Shown here in pieces: positions 3,598-49,880 of a DNA stretch of 64,000 nucleotides (position 1 is its first letter; every line of letters starts with the position of its first letter). This stretch comes from Acidobacteriota bacterium (GTDB lineage Bacteria; Acidobacteriota; Terriglobia; Acidiferrales; UBA7541), in assembly GCA_003223255.1 (NCBI GenBank), contig QHYJ01000340.1, positions 22,084 to 86,083 on the forward strand, given 5' to 3'. The position numbers and the translations under genes were made by a program. The notes beneath the pieces were generated by a model. That model saw nothing but the letters and a program-made list of their open reading frames with translations, was not told the origin of the DNA and ran no database searches.

Positions 3598-3647
3598 AGC
3601 CTACCAGGCGGTCGCATCGGGCGTTCTTACAAAGAGAGACAAACGCG

Positions 3648-8320: not shown

Positions 8321-8635
8321 CTACTTCTTAGAATTTCTAGCGAACTTGCGAATGTAGGTCACCACGTCCGCAATTTGTTTGGCGCTTAATCCGCGCGCGG
8401 CAAAAGCATGGGCATATTCTTTGTGGCCCACACCGTAAGCGATGCTCTTATAGAGTTCTTCGTCGGAGAGTTGCTGCACAGCGTCCGACCGCAAGTCGGC
8501 GGGCTTGATCTTCATTTGCGTATGGCCCATTGCCGTCACCGCTTGGGCCAGGCACTTCAAACATTGCGCCTTATACGTTGACTCACCATCATCGGCCGCT
8601 TTTATAAGTATCGGCAACATGAGAACAACGCACAA
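8321..8635 (-). CDS. Cytochrome c-like protein with disrupted CXXCH haem motif (CLKCL)
   Basis: STYKAQCLKCLAQAVTAMGHTQMKIKPADLRSDAVQQLSDEELYKSIAYGVGHKEYAHAFAARGLSAKQIADVVTYIRKFA; flanks are cytochrome c-like, core is out of frame (see findings). Confidence 0.75.
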   Translation of the reverse strand: MCVVLMLPILIKAADDGESTYKAQCLKCLAQAVTAMGHTQMKIKPADLRSDAVQQLSDEELYKSIAYGVGHKEYAHAFAARGLSAKQIADVVTYIRKFARNSKK

Positions 8636-8811
8636 ACAGCAACCATCGCTCGCACGCTGACCTCCACGCTGGTTTGACTCCTCAGCTCACGCCGAAGGAA
8701 AGGTTGACTTGCTCCAAAACTAGGAGACACCCGACAGAGGCCTGGCAACCAGATTATTTCCGCCCTTGTGACCTAGGTTTACATAATAGACTGTCCCCCG
8801 GTAACAAGCCT

Positions 8812-14192: not shown

Positions 14193-14846
14193 ATGATCCG
14201 AATGCCGCCGAGTGTCGACAACGACCAGACCGTCGCCGAGAGCGACGCTGTCGCCGTCGAGCGAACGCTGGCGGGCGATCGCGACGCTTTTCGCGTTCTC
14301 GTCGAGCGGCATAGCCACAATGTTTTCCGACTGGCTTATCGCATGACCGGGAACCGGCCCGATGCCGAAGAGGTGGTCCAGGAGGCTTTCTTGCGCGCGT
14401 ACCAAAAGCTTGGACAGTTTGCCGCCCGAGCGAATTTTGGAACCTGGGTTTACCGCATCGCGGCGAATTACGCGATTGACCGCATGCGCCAGCGCAAAAA
14501 GGAATAAGCGCGCAAAGTCGAGCCCGCGGTACACGAAGAAGGAACCGAAAACGACCCCGTGACGCTGGTGCACGATGCGGCGCCAACACCGGAACGTTTG
14601 GCGCATAACATCGAGTTGCGAAAACAGATGGAGATTGCGCTTGCCGCGCTCTCGCATTCGGAAAGGACGGCGTTCGTCATGCGGCATTGGGAAGGCTGCG
14701 CCATCGAGGAGATTGCCGAAGTGCTGAAATCGAGCTCTGGCGCGGCGAAGAATACTGTTTTTCGCGCGGTCCAGAAATTGCGTCTCGCTTTGCAGCCCTT
14801 CGTGGGAAGAGGGACGCAAGTCCGAGTGATGGGAACGGAATCATGA
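14193..14846 (+). pseudogene. ECF sigma factor split by an in-frame TAA between regions 2 and 4
   Basis: Region 2 in 14193..14507 (DRDAFRVLVERHSHNVFRLAYRMTGNRPDAEEVVQEAFLRAYQKL...FGTWVYRIAANYAIDRMRQRKKE*), region 4 in the same frame 14559..14846 (ALAALSHSERTAFVMRHWEGCAIEEIAEVL). Confidence 0.85.
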
Positions 14847-39056: not shown

Positions 39057-41672
39057 ATGCGCAATTTGCACGAATCCGCTGAAGCGCTGCGGGAATTGCT
39101 CTCGCAGCGAATCCTGGTGCTTGACGGCGCCATGGGTACCATGCTGCAACAACGCAATCTAAGCGCGTCGGATTTTGGCGGTCCAGCGCTTGAAGGATGC
39201 AACGAGCACCTCGTTCGCAAGCGCCCCGACGTGGTCCTGGATATTCACCGGAAATACCTGGAAGCCGGTGCGGATATCATCGAGACCAACTCGTTCAATG
39301 GAACAAAAAGCGACCTCATTGATTATGGAGTCGCGGATCACTCATACGAGCTGATGTTTAAGGCTGCGCAACTGGCGCGGCAAGCTGCGGACGAATTTAC
39401 CACTCCTACCAAGCCAAGATTCGTGGCCGGCTCCATGGGGCCGACGCGGAAGGCCATCACCGTCACCGGAGGAATCACCTTCGACCACCTGCGGCAGGAC
39501 TATTACGACTTGGCGAAGCCTCTTGTGGATGGTGGCGCCGACCTGTTGATGATCGAAACCTCCCAGGACACGCGGAATATCAAGGCCGCGATTCTCGCGA
39601 TACGGCGACTTTCCCGTGAAATCGGCACAGACCTACCCTTGATTATCTCCGTCACCATCGAGCCCATGGGCACAATGCTTGCCGGCCAAACTATCGAGGC
39701 GATGTGGGCTTCGCTCAAATACGCAAAGCCGTTGGCCTTCGGGATGAACTGTGCTACCGGGCCGGAGTTCATGACCGACCACATCAGAACGCTGAGCCAG
39801 CTTACGAGCGAGTTCGTTTCGTGCTATCCCAATGCGGGTCTGCCCGACGAAGAGGGCAAGTATCTGGAGACGCCGTCGTCGCTCGCGGGGCAACTCGAAA
39901 AGTTTGTCGATCACGGCTGGTTGAACATGGTTGGAGGCTGCTGCGGCACCAATGAGCAGCATATTCGCGCGATTGCGCAAATGGCTCAGGGCAAGAAGCC
40001 GCGCCAGCAGCCCGCGGAGAGTCATCGGGCCATCTATACGGGCATCGAGGCCATCGAAGCGGAGGAAAGCACGCGGCCGTTGCTCGTTGGTGAGCGCACC
40101 AACGTCATCGGCTCTCGGCTTTTCAAGAACCTCGTCGCCGAAGAAAAATGGGAAGAAGCCACGGAGATTGCTCGCCGCCAGGTGCGCGGCGGCGCGCAGA
40201 TCATCGACATCTGCCTGCAGAGCACCGAACGCGACGAGAAAAAAGATATTCCTCCTTTCTATGAAAAGCTGATTCGCAAAGTGAAGCCGCCCATCATGAT
40301 CGATACCACCGACCCGGCGGCCATCGAGCTGGCGCTCACGTATTGCCAGGGCAAATCCATCATCAATTCCATCAACCTCGAAGATGGCGAAGAAAAATTC
40401 CAGCGCACCGTGCCTATTGCGCATGAATATGGCGCCGCCGTCGTCGTCGGATGCATCGATGAGGATCCCGTCCAAGCACAGGCCTTCACGCGCGAGCGCA
40501 AGCTGGCCATTGCCCGGCGCTCCTACAAGCTGCTCACGGAAAAGTACGGCTTGGCACCGGAAGAGATCATCTTCGATCCGCTCGTGTTTCCCTGCGGCAC
40601 GGGCGACGAGAATTACATCGGCGGTGCAGTCGAAACTATGGAAGGCATTCGTCTGATTAAACAGGCGCTGCCCGACGTGCGCACCGTCCTGGGCATTTCG
40701 AATGTTTCGTTCGGACTTCCACCCGGCGCGCGCGAGGTAGTGAACTCGGTCTTCCTCTACTACTGCACCAAAGCCGGGCTGGACCTCGCAATTGTCAACA
40801 CCGAAAAGATCGAGCGCTTTGCTTCTATCCCGGCCCAGGAGCGCGAACTCGCAGAAAACCTGCTCTTTTCGCATCCGCCCAAGAGCGTGCCCGCGGATCA
40901 TCCGCATGCGCGCCACCTACTCGATGCTCCCGCGGACTGGCGCCAGCAAAGCAGCGTGCAGCGCGCTGCCGTCAATCAATTTTGGATTGCCGCCATCACT
41001 GAACATTTCCGCGGTGCCAAGAAAAAAGAAAAAGCTCGCGGCGCGGGCCTCATCGCCGACCTCGATCGCAAGCGCGCGGAGGGCGCTGCGCCCCTGGACA
41101 TTATCAATGGGCCACTCATGGCCGGTATGGCGGAAGTCGGCCGCCTCTTCAACGCCAACGAGCTGATCGTCGCCGAAGTGTTGCAATCGGCGGAAGCCAT
41201 GAAAACCGCGGTGAGTTATCTCGAGCAATTTATGGAAAAAGCGGATTCCGCCAAACGCGGCAAAGTGGTTCTCGCCACCGTAAAAGGCGATGTCCACGAC
41301 ATTGGCAAAAATCTCGTCGAAATCATTTTCAAGAACAACGGCTATGAGGTCGTGAATCTGGGCATCAAGGTGCCGCCCGAGGAGTTGATCAAGGCCTATC
41401 AGGAGCATCATCCGGACGCCATCGGACTGTCCGGTCTCCTGGTCAAGAGCGCGCAGCAAATGGTGACTACCGCTAGCGATTTGAAAGACGCGGGAATCGA
41501 AATTCCCTTGCTCGTAGGGGGCGCGGCGCTCTCCGCAAAATTCACACAGACGAAAATCGCTCCGAGCTACGGCAAGGCTGTTGAATCAGTTGATGGACCC
41601 AGCGACGCGCGAATCCGTTTTGCGCGAACACACCGCTTCGGGAAATGGCTTCAGCGTTTCGACAACGGTTAA
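39057..41672 (+). CDS. metH: Cobalamin-dependent methionine synthase, Hcy/pterin/B12 domains (frame-broken before reactivation domain)
   Basis: RILVLDGAMGTMLQQRNL, MVGGCCGTNEQHIRAI, GERTNVIGSRLFKNLV, VVLATVKGDVHDIGKNLVEIIFKNNGYEVVNLGIKVP (DxHDxG). Confidence 0.93.
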   Translation: MRNLHESAEALRELLSQRILVLDGAMGTMLQQRNLSASDFGGPALEGCNEHLVRKRPDVVLDIHRKYLEAGADIIETNSFNGTKSDLIDYGVADHSYELMFKAAQLARQAADEFTTPTKPRFVAGSMGPTRKAITVTGGITFDHLRQDYYDLAKPLVDGGADLLMIETSQDTRNIKAAILAIRRLSREIGTDLPLIISVTIEPMGTMLAGQTIEAMWASLKYAKPLAFGMNCATGPEFMTDHIRTLSQLTSEFVSCYPNAGLPDEEGKYLETPSSLAGQLEKFVDHGWLNMVGGCCGTNEQHIRAIAQMAQGKKPRQQPAESHRAIYTGIEAIEAEESTRPLLVGERTNVIGSRLFKNLVAEEKWEEATEIARRQVRGGAQIIDICLQSTERDEKKDIPPFYEKLIRKVKPPIMIDTTDPAAIELALTYCQGKSIINSINLEDGEEKFQRTVPIAHEYGAAVVVGCIDEDPVQAQAFTRERKLAIARRSYKLLTEKYGLAPEEIIFDPLVFPCGTGDENYIGGAVETMEGIRLIKQALPDVRTVLGISNVSFGLPPGAREVVNSVFLYYCTKAGLDLAIVNTEKIERFASIPAQERELAENLLFSHPPKSVPADHPHARHLLDAPADWRQQSSVQRAAVNQFWIAAITEHFRGAKKKEKARGAGLIADLDRKRAEGAAPLDIINGPLMAGMAEVGRLFNANELIVAEVLQSAEAMKTAVSYLEQFMEKADSAKRGKVVLATVKGDVHDIGKNLVEIIFKNNGYEVVNLGIKVPPEELIKAYQEHHPDAIGLSGLLVKSAQQMVTTASDLKDAGIEIPLLVGGAALSAKFTQTKIAPSYGKAVESVDGPSDARIRFARTHRFGKWLQRFDNG

Positions 41673-42531
41673 AGTCGCCCCCATTCCAAAAGTGACGCGC
41701 TCGCCCCGCGTGCGGCCGGACCTGCCGATTCCCCCGGTGCCCAATCTCGATCGCAAGGTTCGCCTCGTGCCTGATCTGCGCGACATTTGGAGCTACGTCA
41801 ACCCCTACATGCTCTACGGCCGGCATCTGGGCTTCCGCGGCGATTTCGAAAAGCACCTCGCCGAACGCGACCCCAGAGCCGTCGAGTTGTTCGAAAGCAT
41901 GGAGGAAGTGAAGAAAGAAGCCGCCACGTTCATGAAAATCCGCGCGGTTTGGCAATTCTTCGAAGCGGAAGCAGAAGGCGAGCTATTACATCTCTTTGCG
42001 CCAGGCGCGAAGCAGCCGTTGCACACGTTCCGCTTTGGCCGGCAGCGCCAGGGCGAGTTTCTGTGCTTAAGTGATTACGTTTTGCCCGCCCAGAACGGCA
42101 AACGCGATCATCTCGCGCTTTTCGTGGTGACAGCTGGCGAAGGCGTCCGCCCGCGCTCTGAAAAAGCCAAGAACGAGGGCCATTATTTCTTGAGCCACGG
42201 CTTGCAGGCGCTGGCTATCGAAACCGCGGAAGGCTGCGCCGAATGGCTGCATCGCCGCATCCGCGAGGACTGGGGCTTCCCCGATCCCCCGGAAATGACC
42301 ATGGCGCAGCGCTTCACATCGCGCTATCGCGGCAAGCGCTATAGCTCTGGCTATCCGGCTTGCCCCAACCTGGAGGATCAGGCGGGCATCTGGAAATTGC
42401 TGAAGCCCGAAGAAATCGGTGTGCAGCTCACGGAAGGATTCATGATGGATCCGGAAGCCAGCGTTAGCGCGCTCGTGTTCCACCATCCCGACTGCACGTA
42501 TTTCTCCGTGGGCGACGCCGCAGAGGCATAG
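41581..42531 (+). CDS. metH: MetH reactivation (AdoMet-binding) domain in +1 frame relative to metH
   Basis: DIWSYVNPYMLYGRHLGFRGDFE, DHLALFVVTAGEGVR, HRRIREDWGFPDPPEMTMAQRFTSRYRGKRYSSGYPACPNLEDQ. Confidence 0.88.
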   Translation: MNQLMDPATRESVLREHTASGNGFSVSTTVKVAPIPKVTRSPRVRPDLPIPPVPNLDRKVRLVPDLRDIWSYVNPYMLYGRHLGFRGDFEKHLAERDPRAVELFESMEEVKKEAATFMKIRAVWQFFEAEAEGELLHLFAPGAKQPLHTFRFGRQRQGEFLCLSDYVLPAQNGKRDHLALFVVTAGEGVRPRSEKAKNEGHYFLSHGLQALAIETAEGCAEWLHRRIREDWGFPDPPEMTMAQRFTSRYRGKRYSSGYPACPNLEDQAGIWKLLKPEEIGVQLTEGFMMDPEASVSALVFHHPDCTYFSVGDAAEA

Positions 42532-44703: not shown

Positions 44704-45748
44704 ATGCGCAGTGTATCGAAGTGTGTTCTGGGATTTCTCGCAGCATGGACAGGATTGAGTCTTCTGGCGGGTCGCGCCGAGGCGCAATTCAGAAACGGAA
44801 GCCAGCCGACGGAATTGAATATCCCACGCGTCAGCCAGCGGGCCAGTGTGACGCAGCGGATCGGCTTGACGGATATCACGATTACCTATCATCGGCCGGC
44901 GGTGGGAGGACGTGAGATTTGGGGCAAAACGGTTCCTTATGGAAAGGTGTGGCGCGCCGGGGCGAATGAGAACACGACCATTACGTTTTCGGATGATGTG
45001 ACCGTGGAGGGAAAGCCGCTGGAGGCGGGCACGTACGGGCTGCATACGATTCCCGACAAGGATCAGTGGACGATCATCTTTTCGAAGAATTCGACCTCGT
45101 GGGGCAGCTTCAGCTATGACGAGAAAGAAGACGCGCTGCGCGTGCGATGACGTCAAGCCGGAGTCCGCGGTGGTGACGCTGTGCTGGGAGAAGCGGGCCG
45201 TGCCGTTCCAGATTGGCGTGGACGTGAAAGCCGTCGTGCTGCGCAGCATCAAGAACGGGCTGCGCAGCGTCGGCGGGTTCACCTGGGCGGGTTACGACGA
45301 GGCAGCGCAGTGGTGCCTGGACAGCAACTACGAGCTCGAGCAGGCACTGAAGTGGGAGGACACGTCCATCCAAAACGAGCCGCGCTTCGAGAACTGGGAG
45401 ACCAAGTCGCGCATTCTCAAGGCGATGGGCAAGAACGAAGATGCGGACAAGGCGCTGGAGACGGCGATCGACAAGGCGAACGCGGTGCAACTCTATGTCT
45501 ATGCCCGCGGATTGCAGCGCCAGGGGAACGCGAAGCGCGCATTTGAACTGTATCCGCAGGTTTCCAAGAAGGATCCCAATCACTGGATCAGCCACCTGGC
45601 GCTGGCGCGGGTCGACTCGAACAAAGGCGATTTTCCTACGGCCACAAAGGAGTTGACGCAAGCCATCAGCGGCGCGCCGGACCAGACCAAGCCGTTCCTC
45701 GAGCCGCTGCTGAAACGCCTGGAAGCCAAGGACGACATCAATAAGTAG
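44704..45748 (+). pseudogene. DUF2911 domain protein, internal deletion with frameshift
   Basis: Frame 1 44704..45150 (VTQRIGLTDITITYHRPAVGGREIWGKTVPYGKVWRAGANENTTITFS...SYDEKEDALRVR*); continuation in another frame from ~45147 (DDVKPESAVVTLCWEKRAVPFQIGVDVKAVVLRSIKNGL...). Confidence 0.85.
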
Positions 45749-48334: not shown

Positions 48335-48545
48335 GAAGAGCCGGGCTGAAGCCCGCCCTCTGCATGAAGAGAGATTTTTTGCTTCGCTCGAAATGACGAG
48401 TGGGCGCGGTAGTGATGAAAACAGATCCCTCACCACCGTTCGCAAACGACCCGACCGGGTTCGGGATGACAGTTTTGGCGTTGTGGTGCGTTGCGGCCCG
48501 CCTCGGAAGGCGGCCCCTACAAGAGCAACAGGTTAGGCGCGAGAG
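48335..48545. repeat. Cluster of dispersed modules (gggctgaagcccg; ttgcttcgctcgaaatgac; gttcgggatgac; cgcctcggaaggcgg)
   Basis: Non-coding stretch with several repeat-like motifs shared with other intergenic sites in the window. Confidence 0.55.
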
Positions 48546-49880
48546 AGGGCGGCGCGTCCGGGTTCGGCAACGGAGGCGAGGGCGGCTTCGATAACGTCGA
48601 GGCCCTCGTCGAACTGCTCGTCGGTGACGACGAGCGGGACGAGGATGCGGATGACGTTGTTGAAGGTGCCCGCGGTGACGGTGATGAGGCCGTGCTCGTA
48701 GCAGTAGCGAGCGATTTGCTTGGTTTCCGTGTCGGCGGGCTCGCGGGTGGCGGCGTTGCGGACCAGTTCGATGGCGCACATGCCGCCGAGGCCGCGAACA
48801 TCACCAACGAGATCCCATTTCTTTTGCCAGCCGCGGGCGCATTTTTCAAAGCGTTCGCCGATGGCGGCAGAGCGCGCCAGCAGACTCTCTTTCTCGATCG
48901 TTTCGATCACGGCGAGTGCGGCGGCACAAGACAGAGGGTGAGCGCAAAACGTTCCGCCGAGAGAGCCGGGGCCGGGCGCGTCCATGATTTCGGCGCGGCC
49001 GGTAACGGCTGCGATGGGCATGCCGCCGCCAAGGGACTTGGCCGTGGCGATCACGTCCGGCTCGATGCCGAAATGTTCGGAAGCGAACCATTTGCCGGTG
49101 CGGCCGAAACCGGATTGCACTTCGTCAGCGATGAAGAGGATGCCGTGCTCGCGGCAAATCTGTTGCAGCAGCCTGAAGTAATCACGCGGCGGAACGACGA
49201 AGCCGCCTTCGCCGAGAACCGGCTCGGCGAGGACCGCGGCGACGGATTCGGGCGCAACGGAGCGCTTGAAGGCGTCTCTGAGATGCCGCGCAAAATCTTC
49301 GGCGGATGTTCCTGCGGCGTGGCGATACGGATAAGCGTACGGAATGCGATAGATGTCGCTGGCAAACGGCTGGAAGCCGGCTTTGTAAGGATGCTTTGCT
49401 GGTGAGCGACATGGTAAGAAGCGTGCGGCCGTGGAAAGCGTCTTCAAAGCAGATGACGGCGGGACGCTTGGTATACGCGCGGGCGATTTTGATGGAGTTT
49501 TCGATGGCTTCGGCGCCGGAGTTCACTAGAATGGTTTTTTTCGGGAAATCGCCGGGAGCGAGGGCGTTGAGCTTTTCGGCGACGGCGATGTAGCCTTCGT
49601 AGGGAGTGACGGCGAAGCACAGGTGCAAGTATTTTTCCAGCTGCTCGCGGATCCCGGCGGTCACGCGAGGCGAGCGGTGGCCGACATTGAGGCAGCCGAT
49701 GCCGCCGGCAAAATCGAGATAGCGATTGCCATCGACGTCTTCGATGATAGCGGCTTCGGCGCGCGCGGCGAAAACGGGATTGGCGTTGGACGGGCCGCGC
49801 GGGATCGCGGCTTCGCGGCGGGCCATCAGAGCGCGGGACTTGGGGCCGGGGATTTCGGTGCGAAGTTGGATGGTTTTCAT
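48533..49880 (-). pseudogene. Class III aminotransferase (GabT-like) with frameshift near 49391-49397
   Basis: N-part 49880 down to ~49395 (DFAGGIGCLNVGHRSPRV...FEDAFHGRTLLTMSLTSK), C-part in another frame (HPYKAGFQPFASDIYRIPYAYPYR...LFIADEVQSGFGRTGKWFA...ATAKSLGGGMPIAAV). Confidence 0.88.

Follow-up and report, generated by a model that had tools for sequence, protein, structure and literature searches.

A cytochrome c gene with a frameshifted haem motif in an acidobacterial draft genome: a broken ordinary gene, and perhaps a recent pseudogene

Does a small cytochrome c gene whose haem motif appears to have been overwritten by a compensating pair of frameshifts encode a new, haem-free kind of protein, or is it an ordinary gene that has been broken, either in the organism or in its assembly? 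The gene lies in the window (the whole stretch of DNA analysed, 64,000 nucleotides; G000:C335:22084-86083), which was taken from a draft assembly of 6.66 Mb in 428 contigs, 97.3% complete, of a soil Acidobacterium in a genus that also takes in the genome of the gp2 isolate AA88 (QHYM01). The longest open frame across the gene is on the minus strand (8321-8635), runs through the swapped residues, and comprises 104 residues when read from a TTG; SDAVQQLSDEELYK is a peptide from it. This frame scored 29.9 bits against PF13442 (Cytochrome_CBB3, cut-off 27), and thus matches a class I cytochrome c domain profile, while the loss of the haem motif left its score against PF00034 (Cytochrom_C), 16, short of the cut-off of 21.3; the orthologue in genome G032 passes both (39.7 and 32.8, respectively). 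Where a class I monohaem c-type cytochrome would have CXXCH, the window reads CLKCL.

In the minus-strand frame the region of the motif reads CLKC-LAQAVTA-MGHTQMK, compared to C-x-x-C-H-G-x-x-G-D-G-x-G-H in four orthologues of the same genus (G032, G010, G007 and G009). The affected stretch spans 8523-8554; the second Cys codon of CLKC is at 8554-8552, and LAQAVTAM takes the place of HGPxGDGx. As observed in the DNA alignment, a single base present in all four orthologues is absent between 8551 and 8550 (TGCC-TGG in the window), and one surplus G is found within 8528-8526 (GGG in the window, GG in the orthologues). Raw DNA alignments, in which the placement of gaps wobbles, were too noisy for a count of frame changes, and a frameshift-aware protein-to-DNA alignment was used instead; it placed a -1 shift at 8550 and a +1 shift at 8528, the shifted stretch between them reading GPSGDG against GPNGDG in the orthologue. 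The pair thus swaps about eight residues, the haem-ligating His among them. When the genome was scanned over ~84,000 aligned residues (in redundant comparisons), this was the sole stretch of a recognisable gene in which seven residues matched a relative only out of frame, and the match exceeds chance; the other short shifted stretches that the scan returned were antisense or over-extended ORFs. The open frame, its coordinates and the compensating pair are therefore exactly as described in a first-pass annotation made from the sequence of the window.

The four orthologues are 74% (G032), 68% (G010), 67% (G007) and 58% (G009) identical to the window protein and share its C-terminal domain; the G032 match agrees with that found in AA88 (QHYM01000281, L032). 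All of them carry CXXCHGxxGDGxGH together with a usable in-frame start and a signal peptide, whereas the window has neither. No homologue lacking CXXCH was found among those inspected, down to about 30% identity, in a count that excludes two improperly aligned sequences (L020 and L022) and the individual weak matches, a few in number, that were added when 95 genomes from across the order were searched. The window gene is a single orthologue whose gene order is shared with the intact cytochrome c genes of G032, G010 and G007, in each of which genes for a family-2 glycosyltransferase and a Xaa-Pro aminopeptidase are close by; the G009 gene is an additional orthologue. The earlier suggestion of a haem-free paralogue is rejected in view of this conserved position and of the fact that no inspected relative shares the variant. 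Since every relative found has an intact version, the locus is in all probability either a gene that has died or an error in the sequence, and not a new kind of protein.

The damage is not confined to the haem motif. A third indel, a one-base deletion overlooked in the first-pass annotation, which counted two indels in all, lies in the signal-peptide region (minus strand, about 8620-8640; the alignment gap against G010, G007 and G009 falls at 8624/8623, an approximate placement) and leaves the mature domain cut off from the native start. The native GTG start (8653-8655) aligns to the orthologue starts and is preceded, at a distance of 5 bases, by a Shine-Dalgarno-like GGAGG (8661-8665) that is kept in the orthologues. 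In these, GGAGG is followed by ATG or GTG, and a continuous frame joins the signal peptide to the mature domain (the GTG that is in frame in G032 sits two bases farther upstream). Translation of the window from the GTG at 8655 gives VRAMVAVCALFSCCRYL and then meets a stop, after 17 codons. The only starts possible for the 104-residue frame are a TTG or an ATG within the signal-peptide region, neither of which has a Shine-Dalgarno sequence nearby or a charged signal-peptide N-terminus. Judged by reading and alignment, the domain thus has no in-frame Sec signal peptide, and even if the swap at the haem motif were tolerated, the product would be deprived of the native start and of the signal for export.

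With the swapped stretch left aside, about 31 synonymous and 10 non-synonymous changes separate the window from G032, one of the latter being the H/L position made by the indel itself, and dN/dS is about 0.05. The few changes that could be polarised to the window branch are mainly at third codon positions. These ratios indicate that the domain was formerly under strong purifying selection and that the gene was functional until recently, the damage being either recent or artefactual; as the value spans the whole divergence, the break was too recent for relaxation to be visible, or none occurred.

A functional haem-free protein of cytochrome fold, in which selection has kept the compensating frameshifts, could be argued from the exact restoration of the downstream frame, the conservation of the remaining domain and the 104 open codons. 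We nevertheless consider it very improbable, mainly because the native start and export signal have been lost: neither shares a reading frame with the domain, and the alternative starts are poor. In addition, the variant occurs in none of the relatives inspected, and evolution before the break accounts for the low dN/dS. A fuller version, in which haem was lost via the compensated frameshift and the protein, initiated at a new internal start, took up a non-haem, non-exported role, is more improbable again. The likelihood of ribosomal frameshifting yielding a normal cytochrome from the window sequence is close to nil; the pieces of the normal protein are indeed spread over more than one frame, but joining them would take three shifts, the first within the signal peptide and the other two flanking the haem motif, and the orthologues require none.

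The locus is therefore a broken ordinary cytochrome c gene. We consider it to have slightly better than an even chance of being a recently inactivated copy of a gene for a small, exported cytochrome c with a single haem: three inactivating one-base lesions stand against intact orthologues at a conserved place in the gene order. The ancestral gene would have been an ordinary exported cytochrome under purifying selection, inactivated by three one-base indels inside about 110 bases. The indel in the signal peptide breaks the frame, so that translation from the native start would presumably give a dead-end peptide of 17 residues, and the -1/+1 pair replaces the residues that include the haem ligand. 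In this scenario the organism itself, and not the assembly alone, would carry the indels.

An alternative explanation, to which we assign a substantial probability, though appreciably short of even, is that the organism's cytochrome c gene is intact and that all three indels arose in a patch where the scaffolded draft is thinly covered or wrongly joined. The trustworthiness of the assembly was examined by setting genes of the 102-kb window contig, together with those around rpoB and rplB, against their counterparts in G032, G018, G011 and G010, a gene being scored when it was intact in two relatives and broken in the tested genome; many of the listed events were antisense or over-extended ORFs. 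Adenylate kinase is an essential enzyme. The single adk gene of this genome (G000:C415, about 55334, L156) is split across two frames by a 26-base frameshifting deletion, the two halves each being about 94% identical to G032, and it is intact in all four relatives; because of its essentiality, the deletion is almost certainly an assembly artefact. Several further well-conserved genes are broken on the contig of the cytochrome gene. A cobalamin-dependent methionine synthase-like gene (metH, 39057-42525) has lost 38 bases near 41568 that are present in G032 and G018, shifting the frame and costing it its 3' part; a DUF2911 gene (44704-45745) has a 50-base frameshifting deletion near 45144 in comparison to G032 and G011; and a class-III aminotransferase gene (48542-49880) has 2 bases missing near 49394 in comparison to G032, G018 and G011. 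In a sigma-70 family gene (14193-14843), which shares 92% identity with G018, a premature TAA (codon 14505-14507) stands where its relatives have a Glu codon, and a premature TAA was also found in one gene that precedes the window; the rpoB and rplB genes themselves are intact. Three other apparent events were set aside: a frameshift near 3618 reflected an over-extended G032 ORF, the upstream gene being terminated by a stop in all genomes; a shift near -9240 of the contig lay upstream of a gene and not within it; and a -1 at -229 was a run of Ns. Such runs are of varied length (19, 23, 126, 217 and 226 bases), as scaffolding leaves them, which suggests a scaffolded assembly, although some may be masking. 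A search of the literature on indel errors in metagenome-assembled genomes gave nothing useful.

These observations bear on both explanations. An error is favoured by the fragmented state of the draft, by the broken adk and its companions, by the constraint that the mature domain still appears to be under, and by the fact that the three indels would fit within about the length of one short read. The same broken genes count against a pseudogene, as do the narrow time window implied by three indels beside almost no neutral substitutions, and the cancelling of two of the indels in frame, which neutral decay would achieve only sometimes. Arguing against an error, the remaining clear artefact candidates are larger deletions and not one-base changes, and none of the three indel sites is in a long homopolymer. 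Furthermore, the roughly 75 testable genes with confirmed orthologues showed no further one-base indel, nor was there an excess of substitutions at constrained codon positions of this genome (private substitutions at second relative to third positions, 0.175, as compared to 0.20 in G032 and G018), so that random base-calling noise fits poorly. On account of those 75 genes, a recent pseudogene is somewhat likelier than a consensus or assembly error. Of the two options offered by the first-pass annotation, a haem-free protein or consensus errors, the former is undercut by the loss of the start and signal peptide and by the absence of the variant from every homologue inspected, while the latter stays viable in a genome with a broken adk; a genuine recent pseudogene, which fits somewhat better, was left out.

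The distribution of the gene shows that it is dispensable within the genus: only 5 of the 36 genus genomes carry it (E below 1e-15), and two syntenic relatives are without it. In these two (G018, C22 at about 154056, L068; and G011, C167 at about 7845, L069) the glycosyltransferase gene directly adjoins an epoxide-hydrolase-like gene, and no trace of a cytochrome remnant was found between them. As G010 and G007 hold the cytochrome in a matching neighbourhood, its absence from G018 and G011 is probably due to loss. The breakage of a cytochrome c that is accessory, and absent from most of the genus, carries little biological weight; the case is rather one for caution, in that a compensating indel pair can mimic a new protein variant, and that a check of an essential gene such as adk in the same assembly gauges how far such readings can be trusted.

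The extra G may have an origin of its own. It completes a perfect 7-base inverted repeat on the minus strand (TGGCCCA, 8550-8544, and TGGGCCA, 8529-8523), capable of forming a hairpin, where the matching G032 sequence is an imperfect inverted repeat. Template switching at quasipalindromes is known to render repeats more perfect (PMC7202029), and a change from an imperfect to a perfect repeat is likewise what is seen here. It is possible that the extra G arose in this manner; the reading is drawn from sequence, and the route would account for the added base alone and not for the two missing ones.

Among solved structures, the intact orthologue is distantly related to two cytochrome chains, 6h5l_B (E 3e-7) and 6f0k_E (E 2.5e-4), the latter being a monohaem subunit of a quinol:cytochrome c oxidoreductase; these matches are weak, and a specific function is therefore not transferable from them. 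A further feature was noted at 8402-8428, where the window and orthologues L003-L006 have GHKE/QYxHxF or a similar sequence that offers no Met, and many weaker homologues have KMPAY. To judge by these sequences, the distal axial ligand, as a rule a Met within an MPxF-like segment, may have been replaced in the subfamily formed by the window protein and L003-L006; a comparable xxHAF was found in L007, L008 and L012.
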